A stretch of 64,000 nt of DNA from the NCBI GenBank assembly GCA_003600225.1, contig QZFT01000037.1, positions 23,860 through 87,859 on the forward strand, read 5' to 3'. Shown here in pieces: positions 8,462 to 45,449 of this stretch (the first letter of the stretch is position 1; each line of letters starts with the position of its first letter). Position numbers and translations under genes: made by a program. Below the pieces are notes generated by a model. The model searched no databases. It was not told the origin of the DNA and saw only the letters and a list, made by a program, of their open reading frames with translations. Origin of the DNA: Pseudonocardiaceae bacterium YIM PH 21723 (GTDB taxonomy: Bacteria > Actinomycetota > Actinomycetes > Mycobacteriales > Pseudonocardiaceae).

Positions 8462-11977
<3,516 letters not shown>

Positions 11978-28518: not shown

Positions 28519-29319
28519 TCAGTACCGCCGCCCCCAGGCGCTCACGCCTGCCCCCGCGAAGTCCGCGAAACCCGGATCGTCGAACTCCCGCAGGCCCTCC
28601 GCGAGCTCGTCCTCGCTCAGCAGGCCCTCGCCGACCAGCGCGGGCCCGGCCTCCAGCATCCGGCTCCGCCAGTCGTCGTGCACCGCGTCGTCGTTACCCA
28701 CACACGTCATCCGCGCCGACATGCCGATGTCGACGAGCCCCTCCTCGGCGAGGATGGCGGGCAGCCGGCGAACCCAGCTCCGCTCCAGCCCGTGGGCCGC
28801 CTGATGGGCGAGCATCGCCCGGTGCAACCGCTGCCAGGCCGGATGCGGCGAGCTCTCGGTGAGATCACCGGGCCAGTCCTCCTCGATGACCAGCCAGCCA
28901 CCCGGCGCCAGCCAGCGGCCGGCGTTGGCGATGACCTGTCGCCACTGGGGCAGGTCGGCCAGGGTCATCCGGCAGTGGATCAGGTTGAACGAACCCGGCG
29001 GGAAGCTCGCCTTGCGGATGTCGAGTTCCTGGACCTCGACCGGGAACCGCATACCCAGCAGGAACCGGGTGTCGGTGTCCACCGCGATCACCCGGCCGTC
29101 CTCGCAGTGCATCCCCAGCCAGGCCGCGATCGAGCCCGCCCCCGCGCCGATCTCCAGACACCGCCAGTGTGGTTGTATGCCCAGCTGCTTCAGGATCCCG
29201 GTGCTGATCGGATCCAGTCGTCGTTGCAGCAGTCGCAGCCGGGTGAGTTCGGCCTGCCGATCCTTGCTGAACGGGTCATCGATGTGTCTGGTGGAGATGA
29301 GTCTGTCGGTCAGCACCAT
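28519..29319 (-). CDS. Class I SAM-dependent methyltransferase of the RiPP locus
   Basis: 266 residues, ATG at 29319 with GGGGGGA before it. SAM motif I is LEIGAGAGSIAAWLG (residues ~56-70), with acidic motif II VIAVDTDTRFL and a motif IV-like FNLIHCRMTLADLPQW. Related to the ubiquinone/menaquinone-type methyltransferases used widely in secondary metabolism. It is divergent from the precursor-peptide gene with a 140-base shared promoter region, which makes a role in peptide modification plausible (N-, O- or C-methylation after or besides the radical SAM step). Substrate unknown. Confidence 0.82.
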   Translation of the reverse strand: MVLTDRLISTRHIDDPFSKDRQAELTRLRLLQRRLDPISTGILKQLGIQPHWRCLEIGAGAGSIAAWLGMHCEDGRVIAVDTDTRFLLGMRFPVEVQELDIRKASFPPGSFNLIHCRMTLADLPQWRQVIANAGRWLAPGGWLVIEEDWPGDLTESSPHPAWQRLHRAMLAHQAAHGLERSWVRRLPAILAEEGLVDIGMSARMTCVGNDDAVHDDWRSRMLEAGPALVGEGLLSEDELAEGLREFDDPGFADFAGAGVSAWGRRY

Positions 29320-29459
29320 GTCGTCCCCCCGCGCTGCTTGGTATGGACATGATGCGCAACCGTGCTGACTCCGCGCTCTCCGCTGCGGACAGTGGTGTGA
29401 CAGTGACCCCCGCGTACAGTGTGGGGACTGGCATGAGCAACATGGGGAAAGGTTGCGCG

Positions 29460-29603
29460 ATGCTGACAGATGAGACGTTCATTCTGACCGCCGACGAAGA
29501 CGAGGCGGAGGCGCAGGATCACGAGATGGTGCTGCGCAAGGTCAGGATCGTCGGAGGCGTGGCCGGTGAGGTTCGGCAGGTCATGGCCAAGCAGAAGCAG
29601 TAA
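29460..29603 (+). CDS. Candidate RiPP precursor peptide
   Basis: 47 residues from ATG at 29460, preferred because GGGGAAAGG (29444-29452) ends 7 bases before it; an in-frame ATG at 29433 is less well placed. Acidic N-terminal half (MLTDETFILTADEDEAEAQ) as in a leader, then a basic, Val/Gly-rich C-terminal half (VLRKVRIVGGVAGEVRQVMA, ending KQKQ). Two Gly after IV could mark a processing site, giving a short core VAGEVRQVMAKQKQ. It ends 21 bases before the radical SAM gene. It does not visibly carry a nitrile-hydratase or Nif11 leader, the leaders usually named with this enzyme class. Assignment as precursor rests on size, composition and position. Confidence 0.65.
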   Translation: MLTDETFILTADEDEAEAQDHEMVLRKVRIVGGVAGEVRQVMAKQKQ

Positions 29604-29624
29604 GGCGGCCCGAAGCACCGTGCC

Positions 29625-31448
29625 ATGCGGATAACCCTGGTCGCGATGCCGTGGCACGCGTGTGACATCCCCTCGCTGGCCATCTCCATCCTGCACTCGC
29701 GCATCCAGCTGACCCGCCCGTCCGACGACGTCGCCGACTACTACGGCAACCTGCGGTGGGCCGAGTTCCTGGTGAGCGCGAGCGAGGGCGTGCTGACCCC
29801 GCAGGTCTACGCCGGGATCGCCGAGGACGGCTTCGAGCACGGGCTGGGGGACTGGGTGTTCTCCGCCGCCCTTTACGACGACCCGGAGTTCGGCTACGAC
29901 GAGCTGCGGGACTACGCGGCCGAGCGCGGGGTGGACATCGAGGCCGCGGTGGCCTGCCGGGCCTACGCCGCCGAGTTCATCGAGGCCGCCGCCGAGGAGA
30001 TCCTCGCCGGCGACCCCGAGGTCATCGGATTCACCAGCACCTTCATGCAGAACGTGGCGACCCTCGCGGTGGCCCGGCGGATCAAGCGGTTGCGGCCCGA
30101 GTGCGTCCTCATCCTCGGCGGCGCCAACTGCGACGGCGCCATGGGGCACGCGTTGCACCGCAACCACCGGTTCCTGGACTACGTGGTGCGCGGTGAGGGG
30201 GAGTTGGTGCTGCCCCAGTTGCTGGACCACGTGGAACGGGGGAAGGCGCCCGAGGACCTGCCCGGCGTCTGCTGGTGGGACGGGGACCGCTCGGTGTGCA
30301 ACCCGGCGCCCACCCGCATCGTGCCGCCCGCCGCGATCCCCTCGCCGTTGTTCGACGACTGGGAACGCGCCCTGGAGGACTCACCGGTTCGTGGGCACGT
30401 GCAACCCAAGCTGGTGCTGGAAGGCGCCCGGGGCTGCTGGTGGGGTGAGAAGCACCAGTGCACGTTCTGCGGCCTGAACGGCTCCTTCATCCAGTTCCGC
30501 AGCAAGGCTCCGGACGTGTTGTGGGAGGAACTGTCCACGCTGGTGACCAAGCACCGGCTGCTGGACGTGGTGATGGTGGACAACATCATCGACATGAACT
30601 ACCTGCCCGGGCTGCTTCCGCTGCTGCGCGATCAGGACTGGGACCTGCGGATCCACTACGAGGTCAAGTCGAACCTGCGACCGGACCAGGTCGAGCAACT
30701 CGCCGCGGCGGGTGTCGCGCACATCCAGCCCGGTATCGAGAGCCTGAACAGCCGGGTGCTGCGGATCATGGACAAGGGAGTGGACGGCTGCCAGAACGTG
30801 CGGATACTCCGGGAGGCGGAGAACAACGACGTCACCGTCTCGTGGAACTACCTGTACGGCTTCCCGGGGGAGACCGACGACGACTACGGACCGGTGATCG
30901 AGCAGTTGCCCGCGTTGGTCCACCTCCAGCCGCCGGGGGCCGCGTCCCGGATCTCCCTGGAGCGCTTCAGCCCGTACTTCGAGGATCCCGGTCTCGGATT
31001 CCCGGCCCGGGTTCCGGCCCGGTTCTACGGCTACACCTATGACCTGCCGGTCGCCGAGCTCCATGACCTGGCGTACATGTTCGACTGCGCCGACGCGGGT
31101 ATCGAGGGGGAGGTGGTCGACCGGCTGCACGCGTCGATCGCCGGGTGGGCCGGCGGATATCCGGCCTCCAGCCTGGTGCAACGCGAGTACGGCGACGGCG
31201 GTCTGCTGATCGAGGATCGCCGGGCCGGCTGGCCCGCCGCCGATCACCTGCTGACCGGGCGGGAGGCGCAGGCATACCGACTGCTGGAGCGTGGCCGGAC
31301 CACCGAATACCTGGCCAAGGCGCTGGGCCATGCCGGGCTGGACGGGTTCCTGGGCCGGTTGCTCGATCGCGGACTGATATTCCGCGATGACGGCCGTCAT
31401 GTCGCGCTGGCGACCAGGAACGTGCCGATTCGCGGGGCACTGCTGTGA
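29625..31448 (+). CDS. RiPP maturation radical SAM protein 1 type (cobalamin-binding C-methyltransferase)
   Basis: 607 residues, ATG at 29625. A cobalamin-binding-like domain at ~residues 130-205 (DPEVIGFTSTFMQNVATLAVARRIK, VLILGGANCDGAMG, YVVRGEGELVLPQLLD). The radical SAM core follows with a CX7CX2C cluster motif, Cys271, Cys279 and Cys282 (RGCWWGEKHQCTFCGLNG), instead of the canonical CX3CX2C. This motif is characteristic of TIGR03975-type enzymes found beside ribosomal peptide precursors. Further core motifs: VKSNLRPDQVEQLAAAGVAHIQ and IESLNSRVLRIMDKG. Likely reaction: methyl transfer to unactivated carbons of the precursor. Its stop overlaps the next gene by 4 bases. Confidence 0.88.
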   Translation: MRITLVAMPWHACDIPSLAISILHSRIQLTRPSDDVADYYGNLRWAEFLVSASEGVLTPQVYAGIAEDGFEHGLGDWVFSAALYDDPEFGYDELRDYAAERGVDIEAAVACRAYAAEFIEAAAEEILAGDPEVIGFTSTFMQNVATLAVARRIKRLRPECVLILGGANCDGAMGHALHRNHRFLDYVVRGEGELVLPQLLDHVERGKAPEDLPGVCWWDGDRSVCNPAPTRIVPPAAIPSPLFDDWERALEDSPVRGHVQPKLVLEGARGCWWGEKHQCTFCGLNGSFIQFRSKAPDVLWEELSTLVTKHRLLDVVMVDNIIDMNYLPGLLPLLRDQDWDLRIHYEVKSNLRPDQVEQLAAAGVAHIQPGIESLNSRVLRIMDKGVDGCQNVRILREAENNDVTVSWNYLYGFPGETDDDYGPVIEQLPALVHLQPPGAASRISLERFSPYFEDPGLGFPARVPARFYGYTYDLPVAELHDLAYMFDCADAGIEGEVVDRLHASIAGWAGGYPASSLVQREYGDGGLLIEDRRAGWPAADHLLTGREAQAYRLLERGRTTEYLAKALGHAGLDGFLGRLLDRGLIFRDDGRHVALATRNVPIRGALL

Positions 31449-31924
31449 TCGAACTGGGCTCCGACCCGGCCGGGACCGTGCGGGCACTGGCCACGCTGCG
31501 CGATCACGCGGCCGCGGGTGCCGAGGTGCGCTGGTCGGGCCGCGTCGATCCGGGCCTGCCGATCGCCGCGCTGCGTCACCTGCCACCCCCGGACACCCTC
31601 CAGGGCTGCGCGCCCGGTGAACTCGACGACTGGCGCCGAATCCACGGGTACGGGATCTGCTATTACCGCGTCGGACCGGGGTTTCTGCAGATCAAGGACT
31701 ATCGCGATCCGGCGAACCGCTTCCAGCTGACGGTGGACGATCCGCGGCTGACGGAGGCGTTCCTGCGACTGCTGGAGCCTGCCCCGCTGGCGGAGTTGAC
31801 CGCGGTGACCCGCCGGGCGGTGCGGGTGCTGGCCGAGTCGAATCTGGTCCTGGTGTGGCAGGGGCACGCGGTGACGTTGCCGCCGCGACTGCGCCGTTGG
31901 CCGGTGCCCTGCCAGTCGATCTGA
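31445..31924 (+). CDS. DUF5825-type partner of the radical SAM enzyme
   Basis: 159 residues. GTG at 31445 overlaps the radical SAM stop (GTGA), indicating coupled translation. Features: IELGSDPAGTVRALATLRDHAAAGAEVRWSG at the start, HLPPPDTLQGCAPGELDDWRRIHGYGICYYRVGPGFLQIKD and FRLLEP-type helices; no catalytic motif. Small proteins of this type recur next to TIGR03975-type radical SAM genes in actinobacteria and are annotated as DUF5825; I recall this association but cannot check it here. A role in substrate recognition or complex formation is likely. Confidence 0.7.
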   Translation: MIELGSDPAGTVRALATLRDHAAAGAEVRWSGRVDPGLPIAALRHLPPPDTLQGCAPGELDDWRRIHGYGICYYRVGPGFLQIKDYRDPANRFQLTVDDPRLTEAFLRLLEPAPLAELTAVTRRAVRVLAESNLVLVWQGHAVTLPPRLRRWPVPCQSI

Positions 31925-31927
31925 GGG

Positions 31928-31943
31928 TGTCCGAAATCGGACA
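31928..31943. promoter_or_regulatory. TGTCCG-N4-CGGACA palindrome before the MFS gene
   Basis: TGTCCGAAATCGGACA starts four bases after the DUF5825 stop and 111 bases before the MFS start. Same pattern as at 18094 and 23882. Candidate operator or a weak terminator between the enzyme genes and the exporter. Confidence 0.5.
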
Positions 31944-32053
31944 ATTTTCACCGTGGAGATGCTTCCACTGTGGAAAGTATTCGTGTCCAACGTGACCGGG
32001 GTTACGCTCGCTCATCAAGTGATGGGCAGGCACTCGGAAGCTGGGGACGCGGA

Positions 32054-33295
32054 ATGGTGGATCACGCCACGGACACCGAGCGGCCATCTGTGTGGTCGAT
32101 ATTCCGGAACCGGGAGATCAGCGCGCTGTTCGCCGGGCTGATCACCGCGATGGCCGGTGCGCAGCTGGCCAGGGCCGCCCTGATGTTCCTGGTCTACGAG
32201 CGGAACCAGTCCGTCTGGCAGGCGGCGTTGATCTTCGCCCTCACCCTGCTGCCCGACATCGTCTGCCGGCCGCTGCTGTCCGGGCTGGCCGACCGCTATC
32301 CGCGCAGAACGGTGATGGTCACGGCCGACCTCTGTCGCGCCGGCCTGGTCGCCGTGATGGCCGCGTTCGACCACTCGGTCCCCACCCTCTGCCTGCTGGT
32401 GGTGCTGGTGCAGGTGGCGGCGGCGCCGTTCGACGCGGCACGGGCCGCGACCACCGCGGCCATCATGCCCGGACCGCGGCTGACCCTGGCCATGGGCGCC
32501 TTCCAGCTGACCATGCAGATGGCGATGGTGCTCGGTTATCTGGCGGGCGGGATCATCGTGGCCGCCATCCAGCCCCGGCCGGCCCTGTGGGTCGACGCGG
32601 TGTGTTTCCTGGTATCGGCCGCGTTCATCCGGTTCGGGGTCGCCGCTCGGCCGGCGGCCGCCCAGCCGGATCACCGTGCCGCGAAGCCGTCCCTGCTGGC
32701 GTCCTTGCGGGACGGCACCCGCCTGGTGATGGCGGAGCCCAAACTGCGCGCCCTGCTGGGATTCTTCGCGGTGACCGGGTTCTTCCTGGTGCCGATGGGT
32801 CTGGTGGCCCCTTACGCGGAGACCATCGGTGCGCACGACACGGACAAGGGTCTGCTGCTGGCGGCCTATCCCGCCGGAACCGTGCTGGGCATGGTGATCT
32901 TCCTGAGTCGCTTCGTCTCGCCCGCGGCCCGGCTGCGGTTGATCGGTCCGCTCGCCATCGTGGCCAGCGTGCCACTGATCTTCTATGTGACGCGGCCCGA
33001 CCTGTGGGGCAGCGTCGGGCTACTGGCACTGGTGGGGGCAGCGTCCTGTTTCAGCGTGCCGGTCAGCGCGGAGTTCATGCGCCTGGTGCCGGACTCCGGG
33101 CGTAGTCAGGCTTACGGCCTGCTGATCACCGTGTTGCTGGGTTCCCAGGGACTGGCGGTCTTGGCGGCCGGTGTGGCCGCCGTCTGGGTTCATCCGGCGA
33201 CGGTGATCGCGGTGTCCGGACTGCTCGGGGTCGGCTGCGCGGCCGCGGCCGCTCGCGCCTGGTACCGGGCGTGCGCGACGGCACCTCTGGGCTGA
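32054..33295 (+). CDS. MFS transporter, likely exporter of the RiPP product
   Basis: 413 residues from ATG at 32054, chosen for the preceding GGGGACGCGG and because the helices start right after it; the frame opens earlier at 31970. About 12 membrane helices (ISALFAGLITAMAGAQLARAALMFLV, WQAALIFALTLLPDIVCRPLL, LLGFFAVTGFFLVPMGLVAPYAE). The loop SGLADRYPRRTVMVTADLCRAG is the MFS motif A region of drug/siderophore exporter types. Same strand as the maturation genes. Export of the modified peptide or self-resistance is inferred from context. Confidence 0.82.
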   Translation: MVDHATDTERPSVWSIFRNREISALFAGLITAMAGAQLARAALMFLVYERNQSVWQAALIFALTLLPDIVCRPLLSGLADRYPRRTVMVTADLCRAGLVAVMAAFDHSVPTLCLLVVLVQVAAAPFDAARAATTAAIMPGPRLTLAMGAFQLTMQMAMVLGYLAGGIIVAAIQPRPALWVDAVCFLVSAAFIRFGVAARPAAAQPDHRAAKPSLLASLRDGTRLVMAEPKLRALLGFFAVTGFFLVPMGLVAPYAETIGAHDTDKGLLLAAYPAGTVLGMVIFLSRFVSPAARLRLIGPLAIVASVPLIFYVTRPDLWGSVGLLALVGAASCFSVPVSAEFMRLVPDSGRSQAYGLLITVLLGSQGLAVLAAGVAAVWVHPATVIAVSGLLGVGCAAAAARAWYRACATAPLG

Positions 33296-33305
33296 ACCGG
33301 TCTCG

Positions 33306-36300
33306 TCAGACCTCGGTCGAGACGAAGGTCTGCTGGGCGAACCGGACTTCGGCCGGAGCGGGCAGTTCCAGGTCGGCGAATATCGCGACCGCGGCGTCCA
33401 GATTCCGGTGTGCCTCGGCCGTGTCGCCGGTGCCGTGCAGCGCCAGGGCGAGGATCGCGAGCGTGCGGGCTTCGTCGTAGCGGCAGCCGGTCTCCCGGTG
33501 GATGCCCAGCGCCTCCGTGGCCCGGTCGGCTCCCCGTTGTGGCTCTCCGGCGGTTACCAGGGCGTGCGCGAGTTCGGTGCCCGCTCGTCCCTCCCGGATC
33601 CGGTAGCCGCCCTCGCGGCTCAGCGCCAGCGCGGCTTCCCCGCAGTCGATCGCCTGCCGCGGGTTCCGGGCGAGTTCGGCCACGGACAGGCCGATCAGGC
33701 TGTCCAGCTCACCGCGCCGGTAGTCCAGCTGCCGGGCGCGGTCCAGCGCCTGCTGACCGACGGAGAGCGCGCGTTCCTCCGCCCCCGCCGCCGCACAGGC
33801 CGTCGTGAGGGTGACCAGGGCGTCGACCTCGTAGTTCGGCATGCTGGCCCGCTGCGCGGTGGCGATGGCGAGCTCGGCCAGCTCCAGGGCCTGATCGAAA
33901 TCTCCCAGGCGGATGCTGATGCAGCTGAGACCGTGGAGAGTCTCGCTCTCCTTGATGTACATGCCGATGTTGCTCGTGAGCTCGCGCGCCTCGGTGAAGT
34001 AGCCGGTCGCCTCCTGGATCGAACCCTGGTACAGCAGCACCTGGCCGATCAGGCTGAGGGTCACCGCTTCGAAGTGGGTGAAGCCGCCGCTCCTGCTCAG
34101 CGTAAGCGCCCTGGCGCAGAGTTCCCCCGCCTCCGCTACCCGGCCCAGCTGCAGGTAGACGTAGCTGAGGTTGATCAGCACGTGGGCCTGCTGGTAGGAG
34201 TGGCCCGACTCGACGGCGATGGCGAGCGCCTGGTGGGAGCAGTCGGCGGCATCGGTGAGCCGGCCGGTTTCCTCGAACACCACACCGAGGCTGATCAGGG
34301 CGCGGGCCTCACCGTCGCGCAGGCCGGTATCGCGGTGCGCGGCCAGTTCCTGCGTCCAGTGCTGGAAGGCGCTGTGGTGCTCGGCGCGTCCCCAGTGGAC
34401 GATGGCGAACCCGTCGTGCATGAACGCCGCGGCGTGCCGGTTCCCATGGTGCAGCGCGGTGCTCAGGCCCACCTCGTACGCGGACAGGATGTCCGCCGTG
34501 TCCTTGCCGAGGATGGCGTACGGGCGCAGGGCCTCGGCGATCTGCCAGGCGGCGGGCAACAGGTACCGTCCCGCGTCGCGGATCGCGGCGACCAGGTTGG
34601 CGGACTCGACGGTGTACCACTGCCGGGCGGTGGCGTGATCCGGGAACTCCAGCTGCGGGACCTGGAGCTCGCTGGCGGGCCGGGGCAGCCGGAGATCGCT
34701 GGGGTACAGCACCACCGAGGCGGAGTAGGTGTTCTGCACGTAGAAGTCCAGCAGCCGGTCGCGCGCGGCCGTCCTGGTCTCGTCCGGATCGTGTTGCTCG
34801 CAGCGTTCGTTGGCGTACAGCCGGAGCAGGTCGTGCAGCCGGAACCGGGACGCGTCGTGGCTGTGTACCAGGCTGGCCGCGGTCAGCTGGTTGAGGATCA
34901 CCGCCGCCTTGCCGGTGTCCGTCCCGGTCAGGGCGGCCGCGACCTCGACGGTGAAATCGGGACCGGGGACCAGGCTGAGCAGCCGGAAGACATCCTGGGC
35001 GGTCGGGGGCAGCACGGCGTAGGACTGGTCGAAGGTGGCTCGCACCCCGGCCTCGTCGTCCCCCTCGACGGTCAGCACCTCCAGCCGGTCCGGCGTCGTC
35101 AGGTCGGTGACGCACCTGGTCAGCGAATACTCGGGTCGCACGGCGAGATTGGCGGCCACGATCCGCAGGGCGAGGGGCAGGTAGGCGCAGAGCCGGGCCA
35201 GTTCATGGGCGGCGTCGGGTTCGGCCCGGACCCGATCCACGCCGAGGATGTTCTCGAACAGGTGCAGCGCCTGTTCGGCGGAGAGCACGTCGAGGGGCAG
35301 TAGCCGGGCGCCCTGCCGCGCGGCGAGGCCTCGCATCTCGTTGCGGCTGGTGATGATCGCGGCGCAGCGCGGTCCGCTGGGCAGCAGCGGGCGGACCTGT
35401 TCCGGACCGGTGGCGTCGTCGAGCACGACCAGCACGGAACGCTCGGCGAGCAGCGTGCGGTAGAGCGAGGTCAGGTCCTCGATGTCGGTGGGGACGTGAC
35501 GGGGCGGCACGCCGAGGCTCTGCACGAAGCGGCCGAGCACCCTGGTCGGCGTCAGGCTCGATCCGATGCCGAAGCCGCGCAGGTTCGCGTACAGCTGGCC
35601 GTGCGGGAACCGGTCCCGGACCAGGTGCGCCACGTGCACGGCCAGCGCCGACTTGCCGATTCCCGGGGCGCCCGAGAGCACCACGGAACCGCGTCGCGCG
35701 GACCCGTCATCGGTGAGCGTGTTCGCCACGTTGCGGATCAGCGTGTCGTGCCCGACGAAATCCAGCAGGGCCGGCGGCAGCTCGCCGGGCACCCCGGGGT
35801 GGAAGGCACGCGGTTCCATCGAGGAGGCCCCCACCGGTTCCGGCGCCGCGACCTCGGGATCGCTGGTCAGGATCTGCTGTTGCCTGCGCCGCAGTTCCTC
35901 CCCGGGATCGACGCCGAGATCCTCGGCCAGCAGCTCGCTGATCTGCCGATACTTGGCCAGCGCCTCCGCCTGCCTGCCCGAGCGGTAGAGCGCGAGCATC
36001 AGCTGGGCCCAGAACCGTTCGCGTAACGGGTGCTCGGCGACCAGCGTCTGCAGTTCGCCGGAGACGTCCGCGTGCCTGCCCAGCTGCAGATCGATCTCGA
36101 TGCGCCGGTCGAGGGCTCGCAGGTACTCCTCGGTCAGCCGCACGCCCTCTTCCCGGCGGAGCGTCTCCGAACTGATGTCCCGGAGTGCGTCGCCCCGCCA
36201 TTCGGCGAGTCCTGACCGGAGCAGGCGGGCCTGTTCCCGCAGGTCCTCGGTGCTCGCCGCCAGGGTCACCGCCGACCGGAAGCGCAGCAGGTCGAGCTGA

Positions 36301-36608
36301 TCCCCGGCGAGGTTCATCTGGTAGCCGCCGGGCACCGTGCTGACCAGCGTGGCGTCGCCCAGCGCGTGCCGCAGCCGCAGCACGGCGGTCTGCAACTGCG
36401 CCCGGGGATTGTTGATCGGCCTGTCGTCCCACAGCCACGTCGTCAGCTGCTGGACCCCGACCGGCTGGTTGGCGCGCAGCAACAGGGCGGCCAGCAGCGT
36501 TCGCTGCCTGCCCGCGCCGAGGACGACCGGCTTGCCGCCGATCTCGGCCTCCAGATGACCGAGCACGCGGAAGGACGTCCTCATGCCCTGTTCTTGCTCC
36601 CGGTCCAT
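33306..36608 (-). CDS. SARP-type regulator with NB-ARC and TPR domains (AfsR-like)
   Basis: ~1100 residues; 36608 (ATG after GGGGG) is the chosen start, with 36626 (GTG) and 36584 (ATG, MRTSFRVLGHLE) as alternatives. Domains in order: OmpR-like DNA-binding (~10-100: RQRTLLAALLLRANQPVGVQQL, STVPGGYQMNL), BTAD (~105-250), NB-ARC NTPase (Walker A SGAPGIGKSALAVHVA; ERSVLVVLDDATGPEQV; TSRNEMRGLA) and a long TPR array to the end. AfsR/SARP proteins activate secondary-metabolite clusters. It is convergent with the MFS gene (10-base gap) and closes the RiPP cassette, so it is the likely pathway regulator. Confidence 0.88.
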   Translation of the reverse strand: MDREQEQGMRTSFRVLGHLEAEIGGKPVVLGAGRQRTLLAALLLRANQPVGVQQLTTWLWDDRPINNPRAQLQTAVLRLRHALGDATLVSTVPGGYQMNLAGDQLDLLRFRSAVTLAASTEDLREQARLLRSGLAEWRGDALRDISSETLRREEGVRLTEEYLRALDRRIEIDLQLGRHADVSGELQTLVAEHPLRERFWAQLMLALYRSGRQAEALAKYRQISELLAEDLGVDPGEELRRRQQQILTSDPEVAAPEPVGASSMEPRAFHPGVPGELPPALLDFVGHDTLIRNVANTLTDDGSARRGSVVLSGAPGIGKSALAVHVAHLVRDRFPHGQLYANLRGFGIGSSLTPTRVLGRFVQSLGVPPRHVPTDIEDLTSLYRTLLAERSVLVVLDDATGPEQVRPLLPSGPRCAAIITSRNEMRGLAARQGARLLPLDVLSAEQALHLFENILGVDRVRAEPDAAHELARLCAYLPLALRIVAANLAVRPEYSLTRCVTDLTTPDRLEVLTVEGDDEAGVRATFDQSYAVLPPTAQDVFRLLSLVPGPDFTVEVAAALTGTDTGKAAVILNQLTAASLVHSHDASRFRLHDLLRLYANERCEQHDPDETRTAARDRLLDFYVQNTYSASVVLYPSDLRLPRPASELQVPQLEFPDHATARQWYTVESANLVAAIRDAGRYLLPAAWQIAEALRPYAILGKDTADILSAYEVGLSTALHHGNRHAAAFMHDGFAIVHWGRAEHHSAFQHWTQELAAHRDTGLRDGEARALISLGVVFEETGRLTDAADCSHQALAIAVESGHSYQQAHVLINLSYVYLQLGRVAEAGELCARALTLSRSGGFTHFEAVTLSLIGQVLLYQGSIQEATGYFTEARELTSNIGMYIKESETLHGLSCISIRLGDFDQALELAELAIATAQRASMPNYEVDALVTLTTACAAAGAEERALSVGQQALDRARQLDYRRGELDSLIGLSVAELARNPRQAIDCGEAALALSREGGYRIREGRAGTELAHALVTAGEPQRGADRATEALGIHRETGCRYDEARTLAILALALHGTGDTAEAHRNLDAAVAIFADLELPAPAEVRFAQQTFVSTEV

Positions 36609-37444: not shown

Positions 37445-38158
37445 TCACACCAACCCGAGCACCAGCTTCGCGACAGCCGCCGGATCCTGGACGTGGGCGT
37501 TGTGCCCCAACCCCGGCAGAATCCGCGGCTCCACCCCGAGCGCCGCCAACTGCTGAGCGGAGACCATGTGGTCATCGGCCCCCGCCGCCAGCAGCACGGG
37601 GGCCTTCGCCGCCGCGAGCAGGCCGGCCATGTCCGGGGCGCCGACCGCGAACGCCTTGCTGTCGAAGCGCAGCGTCCAGCCCTGCTGGGACTCGGTGATG
37701 CCGCTGCTCACCATCGGCGAGTCCGGATCGGTGACCAGGCCGGTCAGCCCGGACACCTTGATGTGCCGGTCGGCCGCGGCTTCCCGCTCCGGGAAGTGCC
37801 GCTGGGGTTTCCCGGCCAGCGCCGCGGCCCCGGCCAGCTCGTCCTCGGTCCACACCACCTTGATGTCGAGCCCGCAGACGGCCTTGACCCGTACCCCGAA
37901 CCAGCCGCTGGCCAGGGTCAACGCCAGCACGCCACCCAGGGAATGGCCGAGCACCACGGTCGGTTCCGACGGGTCGAGCGCGGAGCCGATCGCGCCGGCC
38001 ATGGAGCCGAAGCTGTAGCGCGGCAACGCGTCGGCCACGCCGTGTCCGGGCAGGTCCGGACTGAGCACCAGCCCCGGCCACCGATCGCCCAGTTCGGCCC
38101 GCACACCGTCCCAGACCTGGCCGGTGGCACCCATTCCATGCAGCAGCAAGAGGTTCAC
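37445..38158 (-). CDS. Alpha/beta hydrolase
   Basis: 237 residues from GTG at 38158 (VNLLLLHGMGATGQVWDGV); a TTG at 38194 would add 12 residues. Oxyanion region LLHGMGATG, nucleophile elbow VLGHSLGGVLAL (Ser ~92), acid near GADDHMVSA and catalytic His in PGLGHNAHVQDP. Substrate unknown; the family includes esterases, lactonases and C-C hydrolases. Divergent from a TetR gene 115 bases away, so likely controlled by it. Confidence 0.82.
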   Translation of the reverse strand: MNLLLLHGMGATGQVWDGVRAELGDRWPGLVLSPDLPGHGVADALPRYSFGSMAGAIGSALDPSEPTVVLGHSLGGVLALTLASGWFGVRVKAVCGLDIKVVWTEDELAGAAALAGKPQRHFPEREAAADRHIKVSGLTGLVTDPDSPMVSSGITESQQGWTLRFDSKAFAVGAPDMAGLLAAAKAPVLLAAGADDHMVSAQQLAALGVEPRILPGLGHNAHVQDPAAVAKLVLGLV

Positions 38159-38272
38159 GACTTCTATACTGCCCAGTGGGAACCCGCTGGCCAAGGCTCA
38201 TCGAATGACCCCATAGGACTTCGTCAGAATGTCCTATTGCGTCTTCCCTGTGGATCATTTCTCTCTAGATTG

Positions 38273-42435: not shown

Positions 42436-43404
42436 GTGCGTGCGATCCAGATCCAGCAGCTGACCGGACCGGACGGCGTTGCCGAGGTGACGGCTCCCCA
42501 GCCTGAGTGGGGTGACTGGGCGGTCCTGATCAAGGTCACCGCCGCGCTGGTGAGCTTCCCCGACCTGCTGCAGACCCGCGGCCTCTACCAGATGAAGCCG
42601 CCGCTGCCGTACGTCCCGGGCGGCGAGGTGATCGGCGTGGTGGAGCAGGCGCGCGAGGGCGGCCCGTTCCAGGTCGGCCAGCGGGTCGCCGCGGTGACCG
42701 GGCTCGGCGGCTGGGCGGAGTACGCCCTCGCGGTCGAGGGCAATGTGGTCGCGCTGCCCGACGAGCTGCCGGATGAGTCCGCCGTCGGCGTGTTGTTCAA
42801 CTACGAGACCGCGATCTTCGCGCTCGACTTCCGCGGCCGGCTGGTGTCGGGCGAGACGGTGCTGGTGCACGGCGCCGCCGGCGGCCTGGGCAGCGCCTGC
42901 GTGCAGGTGGCCAAGGCGCTCGGCGCCCGGGTGATCGCCGCGGTGAGCAGCGAGGAGAAGGCGGCCGTCGCCCGCGAGGCCGGCGCCGACGAGGTCGTGC
43001 TGACCTCCGGTGACTGGCTGGCCGAGGTCAAGGGCCTGACCGGCGGCAACGGCGTCGACGTGATCGCCGACCCGGTGGGCGCCGACCTGTTCAAGGACAG
43101 CCTGCGCTCGCTGGCCCGGGGCGGTCGGCTGCTGGTGCTCGGCTTCGCCGGTGGCAGCATCCCGGAGGTCGCGGTCAACCGGCTGCTGCTGCGCAACGTC
43201 AGCGTGCTCGGTGTGGCCTGGGGCGAGTGGTTCATGGCCGACCCGACGCTGAACGCCAAGCTGTGGGACAAGCTGCTGCCGCTGATCAAGGACGGCAAGG
43301 TCAAGCCGCGCGCCGGGCAGTCGTTCCCGCTGGACCGCGCCGTCGACGCGCTCCGGTTGCTGGACGAGCGCAAGGCCGTCGGCCAGGTCAGCCTCCGGTT
43401 CTAG
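42436..43404 (+). CDS. NADPH:quinone oxidoreductase-like MDR family protein
   Basis: 322 residues, GTG at 42436 with GGAG 6-7 bases upstream. Zinc-independent medium-chain reductase: N-terminal GroES-like domain (YVPGGEVIGVVEQ, GWAEYALAVEGNVVALPDELP), Rossmann motif VLVHGAAGGLGSACVQVAKALGA, and GGNGVDVIADPVG. It lacks the zinc ligands of alcohol dehydrogenases. Reduces quinones or enones with NADPH; the exact substrate is unknown. The stop overlaps the convergent NIS synthetase end by 4 bases. Confidence 0.88.
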   Translation: MRAIQIQQLTGPDGVAEVTAPQPEWGDWAVLIKVTAALVSFPDLLQTRGLYQMKPPLPYVPGGEVIGVVEQAREGGPFQVGQRVAAVTGLGGWAEYALAVEGNVVALPDELPDESAVGVLFNYETAIFALDFRGRLVSGETVLVHGAAGGLGSACVQVAKALGARVIAAVSSEEKAAVAREAGADEVVLTSGDWLAEVKGLTGGNGVDVIADPVGADLFKDSLRSLARGGRLLVLGFAGGSIPEVAVNRLLLRNVSVLGVAWGEWFMADPTLNAKLWDKLLPLIKDGKVKPRAGQSFPLDRAVDALRLLDERKAVGQVSLRF

Positions 43405-45449
43405 CGGATGCGCAGTGGATTCGGCGCCGGTAGGAACACCTCGTCGGCGACCGTGTCCACCAGGCGCATCGACAGCACCTTCTTCAGCGGCAGCGGGCGG
43501 TCCAGCACCGCCCGCCGGTCGTCGGAGGCCTCGTGGCCGATGTCCGGCAGCCCGAGCAGTCCGGAGTAGGTGCGCAGCACCTCGCCGCGGAACGGCGACC
43601 ACAGCCGGGTTTCGTCCACACTGGACACTTCCGCCAGGCACTCCAGCAGCGCGCCGACGTGCTGGGTGAGGAACGTGTACAGCAGCTTGCCGCGCACCGG
43701 GTCCTCGGTCTCGGCCAGGATGCTCGATCCGGTCCGCAGCGAGATGTCCAGGCCCTGGCGGCGCAGCCTGCCCCGATGGATCCGGATGCTGCCGAAGTCG
43801 CGGACGGCGAACCGGACGGGCAGGCCGTCGCGGAACACCACGATCGAGTTCTGCGGATGCGCCGCGAGGGCGATGCCGTACCGGGTGAGCAGGGTGAACA
43901 GTGGCTCGACCGTGAGTTCGGCGTAGCGGGCGGCGAACAGCTGTGCCGCGACGGCGCGGCCGGGTAGCGACCGCGCGATGGCCAGCTCGTCGAGGAGCTC
44001 GGCCAGGATCGGCTCGTCGTTGAGCGGGGAGCGCGCGGTGAGCGCGGCGGCCGGGATCGCCAGCCTGCCGAGCGGCAGCCCCTGCTCCGGATTGGTCCGC
44101 AGGATCGCTCCCAGCGCCCTGGCCCGGCGCGGGTCGTTCTGGTCGGCGGGCAGCCAGCCGATGCCGGCCCGGTCCTCCAGGATCTGCAGCCTGCCGGTGA
44201 AGTCGGCTTCGCGGAGCATGATCTCCCGCAGCACTCGGCTGACCCGCGGCCCGTTGTGCACCGCCTCCGGACCGATGCCACGCATCGCCCCCGCGACCTG
44301 GACCTCCAGTGCGGTCTTGATCCGCAGCGGATGCGGATTCTGCTCGGTACCCAGCGGCGCCAGCGTGCGCACGGACATCAACGGCATCGCGGGCAGCGCG
44401 ATCTCCGGGAGCGGCACGATCTCGCCGTCCCGGATCGCCGCCCGGCCCACGTCGGGCAGCACCCGGCTCGCCTGCAACGGGTGCACCGGGATCAGCACGT
44501 ACCGGTCGGGGGCGAGGCCACGCTGCCGCAGTCCGGCGGCCGCCTGGACCGTCAGCAGCGGATGTTCGCTGCGCAGCAGTTCGCCGAAGGACTCCTTGAC
44601 GCCGCTGCCCGCGGCCCGTTCACGGCGGACGGCGGCGAGCGGGGCGGCCAGCAGGGAGCCCCACTCCGGGCCGTGACCGAGCTGCTCGGCGGGGCTCATG
44701 CCCGCCCGCACCATGGCGCACGGGTGCAGCGGGTCGCCCTCGATCACCCACTGCTCGAAGAAGGCGTGCGGGCTGAACTCGGTGAACTCGCCGGACTGCT
44801 CGCGCACCCAGTCCAGGGTGGTGTGAATCCCGCGCTGGGCCGCCTGGGAACGCAGTCGCGCGGTGCGCATCGCCGCTCCGGCCAGCGCGAGCGCGTGGTT
44901 GCGCACCGAGTCGGCCAGCTCCGTGCACAGCAGGTCGCCGGCCATGAACGAGTACCCGGTGAAGGTCCCCGCCTCGGCCAGCAACCGGGCGGCGGTGACC
45001 GGGTCCTCCACCGGCAGATCCGAGCCGTCGTGGCCGACCGGCCCGCCGAGGGCCAGCCTGCCCGCGGCGTTCGCGGTGAGCAGCCACGCCCGCAGCCCGC
45101 CGAACGCGACCTCGCCGCCGAGCGGGGCGGAGCGGGTGCCGATGCCCTCCCGGGCCATCGCACTCATCAGGCGTTGCATCGTCGCGCGCCGCGCCTGGGG
45201 CACCGCTGTCAGATAGGCCGCGACGTAGGCGGGACCGCGTGCCTCCAATGCGGGCACGGCGAGACGCTCATGGTCGTACAGCTCGGCGACCGTCAGGTTC
45301 TCCCGGGTCGCTGAATGGTGGAGCACATCGGAGAAAGTATGTTCAAAAATGGGTGGCAGCAAGGTGCCGGTTGTTACCGTTTCGCGCCGAACTGCTGATC
45401 GTTGAGAAGTATCACCGCAGGTGGAAGGCAGGTTCTCGGTAAATTCCAA
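43401..45449 (-). CDS. IucA/IucC family NIS siderophore synthetase
   Basis: ~680 residues. The start is uncertain: 45449 (TTG, GGGG 9 bases upstream) or GTG at 45326; there is no canonical site. IucA/IucC core with IPVHPLQASRVLPD, TLAPLGTEQNPHPLRIKTALEVQVAG, and a C-terminal region with LAAHPQNSIVVFRDGLPVRFAVRDFGSIRIHRG. NIS synthetases join a carboxylate such as citrate to an amine or alcohol using ATP. It stands alone here: no decarboxylase, hydroxylase, exporter or IdeR box was seen nearby. It may make a simple conjugate or work with genes elsewhere. Confidence 0.85.
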   Translation of the reverse strand: MEFTENLPSTCGDTSQRSAVRRETVTTGTLLPPIFEHTFSDVLHHSATRENLTVAELYDHERLAVPALEARGPAYVAAYLTAVPQARRATMQRLMSAMAREGIGTRSAPLGGEVAFGGLRAWLLTANAAGRLALGGPVGHDGSDLPVEDPVTAARLLAEAGTFTGYSFMAGDLLCTELADSVRNHALALAGAAMRTARLRSQAAQRGIHTTLDWVREQSGEFTEFSPHAFFEQWVIEGDPLHPCAMVRAGMSPAEQLGHGPEWGSLLAAPLAAVRRERAAGSGVKESFGELLRSEHPLLTVQAAAGLRQRGLAPDRYVLIPVHPLQASRVLPDVGRAAIRDGEIVPLPEIALPAMPLMSVRTLAPLGTEQNPHPLRIKTALEVQVAGAMRGIGPEAVHNGPRVSRVLREIMLREADFTGRLQILEDRAGIGWLPADQNDPRRARALGAILRTNPEQGLPLGRLAIPAAALTARSPLNDEPILAELLDELAIARSLPGRAVAAQLFAARYAELTVEPLFTLLTRYGIALAAHPQNSIVVFRDGLPVRFAVRDFGSIRIHRGRLRRQGLDISLRTGSSILAETEDPVRGKLLYTFLTQHVGALLECLAEVSSVDETRLWSPFRGEVLRTYSGLLGLPDIGHEASDDRRAVLDRPLPLKKVLSMRLVDTVADEVFLPAPNPLRIR

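Follow-up and report, generated by a model that had tools for sequence, protein, structure and literature searches.

Within a 64,000-nucleotide stretch of the genome of Pseudonocardiaceae bacterium YIM PH 21723 (7.6 Mb in 111 contigs), taken from contig QZFT01000037.1 and hereafter called the window, lies a locus that encodes a B12-dependent radical S-adenosylmethionine (SAM) enzyme, a short peptide directly upstream of it and, downstream, a small protein of the DUF5825 family that looks like the enzyme's C-terminal half copied in shortened form. The peptide is a candidate precursor of a ribosomally synthesized and post-translationally modified peptide (RiPP). Genes for a SAM methyltransferase, a major facilitator superfamily (MFS) transporter and an AfsR/SARP-type regulator flank these three. 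All six open reading frames described in an earlier, sequence-only reading of this DNA were re-derived at the same coordinates, as were the 47-residue length of the peptide frame and the 4-base overlap (GTGA) of the radical SAM and DUF5825 genes. Positions, counted from the first letter of the window, are as follows.

28519-29319, minus strand: class I SAM methyltransferase, divergent; membership in the cluster unsupported
29460-29603, plus strand: candidate gene for a precursor of 47 residues, or of 25 if translation starts at the internal ATG (29526), by position, composition, motif and pairwise match
29526-29549, plus strand: leader-type motif MVLRKVRI, which begins the 25-residue unit common to the window and locus L061
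29565-29585, plus strand: putative core GEVRQVM, the likely site of C-methylation; a recurring motif, its pattern written after the fact
29625-31448, plus strand: B12-dependent radical SAM enzyme of TIGR03975 (C-methyltransferase family), containing RGCWWGEKHQCTFCGLNG
30435-30470, plus strand: CX7CX2C iron-sulphur cluster motif, C271/C279/C282, from radical SAM alignments
30777-31418, plus strand: C-terminal half of the radical SAM enzyme, residues 385-598, homologous to DUF5825 by hhalign
31445-31924, plus strand: DUF5825 partner protein, which seems to repeat the enzyme's C-terminal half in shortened form, by PF19142, hhalign and fold model
31673-31705, plus strand: DUF5825 signature GPGFLQIKDYR, by P[GND][FYW] motif counts
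about 32054-33295, plus strand: MFS transporter (PF07690), likely to act as exporter; the start codon is uncertain and could be 31970
33306-36608/36626, minus strand: large AfsR/SARP-type regulator, convergent, possibly a local regulator; same family near 12 of 87 related loci

The assignment of the enzyme to TIGR03975, already proposed from the sequence alone, is borne out by a match of 569.8 bits against a cut-off of 281.85 that covers positions 1-606 of the 606-position profile; the protein contains the B12-binding (PF02310) and Radical_SAM (PF04055) domains. The CX7CX2C pattern is present in all 110 radical SAM sequences compared and RGCWWG in 108 of the 110, and the cluster cysteines C271, C279 and C282 are invariant in an alignment of 27 sequences. 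The folds nearest to the model of a fused homologue, over an aligned range that corresponds to the enzyme part, are those of OxsB, TokK, TsrM, CysS and MgmA, all B12-dependent radical SAM enzymes. Given these fold neighbours and the precedent of the clavusporins, which are reported to be C-methylated by a B12-dependent radical SAM/DUF5825 pair (PMC12257519), the enzyme of the window is likely to C-methylate a ribosomal peptide, with GEVRQVM as the predicted core.

The partner protein matches DUF5825 (PF19142) with 97.9 bits against a gathering cut-off of 25, and includes the GP.F...R and RRWPVP columns that are conserved in an alignment of 15 DUF5825 sequences. Profile-profile comparison using hhalign aligns DUF5825 with residues 380-607 of the radical SAM enzyme co-linearly over 140 columns (98.2%, E 3.1e-14, score 91.3), whereas 60 column-shuffled controls score no higher than 20.6. 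Thus, 140 of the 159 residues of DUF5825 are aligned, residues 8-148 on 385-598 of the enzyme; homology is observed with about 385-445 and 500-598, and most of the region at about 445-500 has no counterpart. Compared with segments of the enzyme, DUF5825 matches 500-607 at 96.8% (E 2.8e-10) and the other five at no more than 65%, the 65% with segment 400-500 arising because the homology extends into the barrel part, as the comparison with 380-607 indicates. Residues 1-63 of DUF5825 alone match 375-450 at 97.1% (E 7e-11), whereas sliding windows of the enzyme that overlap 375-450 by no more than its edge reach at most 22.7%. A hidden Markov model of 500-607 ranks 73 of 101 DUF5825 sequences over the best of 1292 neighbour proteins, compared with only 20 of 101 for a model of 380-445.

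The fold model of the window's DUF5825, built from 15 sequences, has a mean predicted local distance difference test score (pLDDT) of 88.2, and that of a natural radical SAM-DUF5825 fusion, P0031, 87.8; among the matches listed, PF19142 resides in the same protein as the radical SAM domain in 11 of 120 homologues. In the P0031 model, the C-terminal domain of the enzyme (strands 517-522, 525-530 and 538-542, helices, strands 591-594 and 597-600) and the DUF5825 domain (strands 619-624, 629-634 and 641-645, helices, strands 683-686 and 689-692) are alike in the order and spacing of their elements, DUF5825 having one helix fewer. Sequence search yielded no solved relative of DUF5825, the only match standing at 0.43. 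Residues 71-157, predicted as strands followed by helices, produce weak winged-helix matches, mostly to DNA-binding proteins but with TbiB1-leader complexes among them, a weak hint that DUF5825 might be a peptide-holding partner.

The simplest reading of these comparisons is that the 3' part of the radical SAM gene underwent a partial tandem duplication that gave rise to DUF5825, whose gene sits at that end; the copy is sometimes fused to its parent. In a tree of the C-termini, DUF5825 forms a single group (100/100, 35 rows), and the branch on which the duplication occurred is not placeable because the tree is midpoint-rooted. The motif P-[GND]-[FYW]-hydrophobic is found in 33 of 35 DUF5825 proteins versus none of 38 radical SAM enzymes that have a DUF5825 partner; it also occurs in 4 of 15 enzymes taken as lacking one, three of which make up one clade from the window's family (Fisher 0.005, a statistic that ignores relatedness). 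An ancestral surface may therefore have been retained in DUF5825 and lost from the enzyme. Overall, DUF5825 shows no simple affinity to the unpartnered enzymes: it scores 71.4 against their single-domain C-termini, below the 91.2 for the partnered ones. As a separate observation, the radical SAM C-termini of loci L097, L098 and L099, which come from the window's family and group with DUF5825-less enzymes, contain APGFLQI.D.R, almost the DUF5825 signature, and a SARP gene lies upstream.

A broader proposal, to which we incline only slightly, is that DUF5825 is a pseudo-enzyme in which the catalytic front was lost upon partial tandem duplication and to which peptide recognition was handed over, such that this class of enzymes would grip its substrate with a fragment of itself. 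The relationship between DUF5825 and the enzyme, which the sequence-only reading had missed, offers what seems to be a new explanation of the partner protein; no statement of such descent was found in the literature searched, and the clavusporin paper (Zhang, Li, Overton, Seyedsayamdost, Nat Chem Biol 2025, doi 10.1038/s41589-025-01882-8, as cited by PMC12951456) may already contain one. The methylation of unactivated peptide carbons is a rare chemistry, and the family of unknown function found alongside it would hereby gain a likely ancestor as well as a predicted fold and a role open to testing. The homology further suggests reconstituting these enzymes in the presence of the half-copy or in their naturally fused form, and indicates a surface to mutate.

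By itself, a 47-codon ATG frame in the 305-base gap upstream of the enzyme gene is unremarkable, given that 700 of 2000 base shuffles contain one. Its composition is codon-like, with G+C fractions of 0.72, 0.30 and 0.83 at the three codon positions, and the two halves of the 47 codons are alike. The leader pattern M.[IL][KR][KR][VTI].[VIL], composed after the peptides had been seen, occurs at one of the 4562 start codons of the window, and a looser form at two more. The last 25 residues, which start at the internal ATG, form an ungapped alignment with the L061 peptide (score 36; 2 of 3000 shuffles as good), and none of 3046 peptides from the window outscores the precursor in this comparison. 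Such a match is the one success among six groups of precursors, namely, that of L061, L011 and L060; for the remaining five, 524, 824, 1119, 1911 and 2962 of 3000 shuffles are as good. Weighing against a precursor at this position, profiles built from five sets of relatives' precursors missed the peptide when compared with all 1162 stop-to-stop frames of the window. The peptide has no match to any NCBIfam profile. Taken together, composition, position, the leader motif and the ungapped match to a relative support a peptide gene that stands above chance. Translation may in fact begin at position 29526, with the internal ATG, giving 25 residues; an acidic extension ahead of the leader motif, as in the 47-residue form, is present in the Streptomyces loci L147, L151, L155, L157 and L158.

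The recurrence of such peptides bears on a prediction of the sequence-only reading, which held that homologues of the enzyme should co-occur with a small peptide. They do: a precursor-like short upstream frame is found at 75 of 87 related loci, the window included, a count that is not an independent test because assignment was by motif and partly by eye. Before the count, L097, L102, L111, L112 and L113 were left out for a weak or missing DUF5825 match (L102, L111 and L113 show a weak match and no obvious peptide, L111 having no upstream DNA), and L084, L088 and L138 were retained despite no recorded match. No precursor was found at 12 of the 87 loci: L004, L012, L010, L067, L069, L075, L078, L081, L084, L091, L093 and L130. 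The core motif G-x(0,1)-[VTC]-R-[VIYQ]-[ILVTS] is present in 10 of 32 non-redundant precursors, the window's included, compared with a shuffle mean of 0.11; this pattern was made after the fact, and Q was admitted to take in the window. All motif counts (leader, core and the 87 loci) lean towards the window's peptide because the patterns were written after the peptides had been seen and then broadened so that the window or other rows would fit. The recurring core motif is something to seek in mass spectra.

Homologues of the enzyme are numerous: 4640 proteins match it at 1e-60 (7996 candidates scored), and 38 plasmid records do so at the same threshold. Among the 120 matches listed, only the window's own protein is more than 60% identical. 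Counting the genome itself, 56 of 390 genomes of the window's family contain a match at 1e-60, whereas at 1e-120 the counts are 4 of 396 in a phylum sample and 15 of 394 in a class sample; in the genus of genome G1084, 67 of 295 genomes match at 1e-120. In a quick tree of 108 of 110 radical SAM proteins (L028 and L110 being omitted as short), the enzyme belongs to a branch of 40 (SH-aLRT 96) and, within it, to an inner set of 24 (SH-aLRT 99) that includes Actinomadura, Mycobacterium attenuatum, Nocardiopsis and Streptomyces. A precursor was judged present in 22 of the 24 loci of the inner set, all 22 with the basic leader motif under a pattern widened for L003 and L013. The precursors of these two loci contain tandem core repeats, six PMIR[SN]AA in L003 (8148-8345) and six [VL]RV units in L013 (about 9681-9938), which suggests multi-core peptides in the window's branch. 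The same genome encodes a second radical SAM-DUF5825 locus, L060 (contig 39, about 77478-79690), with a 42-residue peptide ending LGVTIELPRRTIAN; this end recalls the GITITVPF stretch of the clavusporin type, yet the L060 enzyme belongs to the window's branch.

The plasmid locus L163 of Streptomyces clavuligerus falls in the other branch, of 51 (SH-aLRT 86). Its annotated genes encode an MFS protein, an alpha/beta hydrolase, a radical SAM enzyme and a DUF5825 protein, and an unannotated 39-residue frame, MQKDVIHNDPLAGDEENRKPSVGITITVPFRNAEDADED, lies between the hydrolase and radical SAM genes; judging by name and content, this is apparently the clavusporin locus. Relatives of its hydrolase occur beside 25 further radical SAM loci, with one distant match in L014; none of these is among the 40 loci of the window's branch. 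For many loci of the other branch, the flanking DNA covered is only about 1.5 kb. As the clavusporin enzyme pair is already known, the locus is not of an undescribed kind, contrary to the sequence-only reading. Rather, it seems to add a new branch to a kind of RiPP pathway that has been described recently, and the peptides of this branch differ from the clavusporin type. The uncharacterised branch set apart in this way spans Actinomadura, Nocardiopsis, Streptomyces, a mycobacterium and the window's family.

The mechanism that we consider probable as a whole is as follows. The [4Fe-4S] cluster of the enzyme would cleave SAM, and the resulting 5'-deoxyadenosyl radical would abstract hydrogen from an unactivated carbon of the GEVRQVM core, to which methylcobalamin would donate the methyl group (the methylation cycle of B12-dependent radical SAM enzymes is summarised in PMC11285071). 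DUF5825, which would have originated by partial tandem duplication and retained an ancestral Pro-Gly-Phe surface, would pair with the enzyme's own C-terminal winged-helix-like domain; this pseudo-pair would hold the peptide by binding the basic leader motif VLRKVRI and deliver the core to the active site. The leader would be cleaved by an enzyme encoded elsewhere, the MFS protein would export the product and the SARP would switch the cluster on. In its essentials, a RiPP locus with a probably C-methylated and exported product, the sequence-only reading stands as a prediction.

Several other readings have to be weighed against this mechanism. That DUF5825 and the C-terminus of the enzyme share a winged-helix fold without direct duplication, their similarity being convergent or very old, appears improbable. 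Winged-helix folds are common, many unrelated ones match weakly and the duplication is not datable on the tree, but the similarity runs co-linearly past the winged helix, N-terminally, into the barrel segment, and DUF5825 is encoded immediately 3' of the enzyme. Residues 71-157 of DUF5825 may have a fold akin to RiPP recognition elements of the PqqD/TbiB1 type, given the predicted arrangement of strands followed by helices; the scores are weak, and DUF5825 differs in having a further barrel-like segment at its N-terminus and in its homology to the C-terminal half of a radical SAM enzyme. We also see little likelihood that the locus is a plain clavusporin-type (mpc) cluster, the product of which would be a hydrophobic surfactant peptide with multiple C-methylations. 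The window combines the same enzyme pair with a small precursor frame directly upstream and a nearby MFS gene, in keeping with the order MFS-hydrolase-peptide-radical SAM-DUF5825 of L163; however, its enzyme belongs to a different main branch, in which no hydrolase relative was found, and its SARP gene is convergent, unlike in L163. The peptides differ as well: the window's is basic, VLRKVRI...GEVRQVM, without a hydrophobic GITITVPF-like stretch, and its match to the L163 type, MQKD(V/I)IHNDPL...hydrophobic core (MQKDVIHNDPL...VGITITVPF in L163), has a score of 13, with 2962 of 3000 shuffles as good. A clavusporin-type cluster would be expected to have, beside the precursor, a gene like that of the prolyl oligopeptidase MpcP, which is reported to remove the clavusporin leader (PMC12951456); no relative of the L163 hydrolase was found in the window by tblastn at 1e-10. 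The absence of a protease noted in the sequence-only reading fits this result, the S. clavuligerus hydrolase being the only query tried; an alpha/beta hydrolase is encoded at 37445-38194, beyond the SARP.

It is similarly doubtful that the enzyme forms a cross-link or another bond instead of methylating. A B12-dependent radical SAM enzyme of the biphenomycin-like clusters is reported to cross-link ortho-tyrosines, and the YHxYxY clusters of this type, as described in PMC12257519, contain the radical SAM/DUF5825 pair and a second B12-dependent radical SAM enzyme; no MNIO, arginase or second B12-dependent radical SAM enzyme was recognised beside the pair in the window. Furthermore, the last 25 residues of the window's peptide include no Tyr, Phe, Trp, His or Cys, TIGR03975 is named as a C-methyltransferase family, and it is specifically the pair with DUF5825 that is reported to C-methylate. 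The enzyme shares with TIGR03975 (rSAM_ocin_1) the full-length match, the CX7CX2C motif and the B12 domain, but the distant relatives compared, from Nitrospirota, Bacillota and others (19 rows), showed no DUF5825.

We rather favour a narrower delineation of the cluster, in which only the peptide, radical SAM, DUF5825 and MFS genes belong together, and the methyltransferase, perhaps along with the SARP, is a bystander. The conserved order of six genes supposed by the sequence-only reading was not found among related loci; what recurs is peptide-radical SAM-DUF5825, often followed by an MFS gene. Among the loci with context, 46 of 69 have an MFS gene of the clustered kinds within 4.5 kb, and in 35 of 69 it begins 1.7-4 kb downstream of the radical SAM start, the window included in both; the window's transporter is only remotely similar to the others, for example, 32% over 193 residues to that of L062. 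Such neighbour counts are lower bounds because the crude caller of open reading frames missed the S. clavuligerus hydrolase. Among 1414 neighbour frames, the only homologue of the methyltransferase is the window's own, and although 42 of 49 genomes contain a homologue at 1e-15, none other lies, by coordinates, within 15 kb of the radical SAM places located in the searches of the window's family and of the genus of G1084. The methyltransferase was accordingly rejected as a conserved tailoring enzyme, and the suggestion that the product is further methylated is left unsupported, because no homologue was found beside another such radical SAM gene. A SARP of the window's family occurs within 7 kb of only 12 of 87 loci, the window included. 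Conversely, the methyltransferase gene is divergent and about 140 bases from the peptide gene, and in the Streptomyces locus L148 peptide, radical SAM, DUF5825 and MFS genes are followed by a convergent SARP, in the order and orientation of the window.

Other neighbours deserve mention. In Mycobacterium attenuatum (L006, 12712-14463), an X-Pro dipeptidyl-peptidase-like gene (Peptidase_S15) lies downstream of DUF5825 and might encode a processing enzyme. At L008, L011, L061, L062 and L068, the gene just upstream of the peptide gene encodes a protein with ADEF and RHVA/RHVG motifs, reminiscent of ferritin-like iron proteins; the L061 copy matches nothing in Pfam at 1e-5. The window also encodes an IucA/IucC siderophore synthetase (43401-45449), to the right of the locus.
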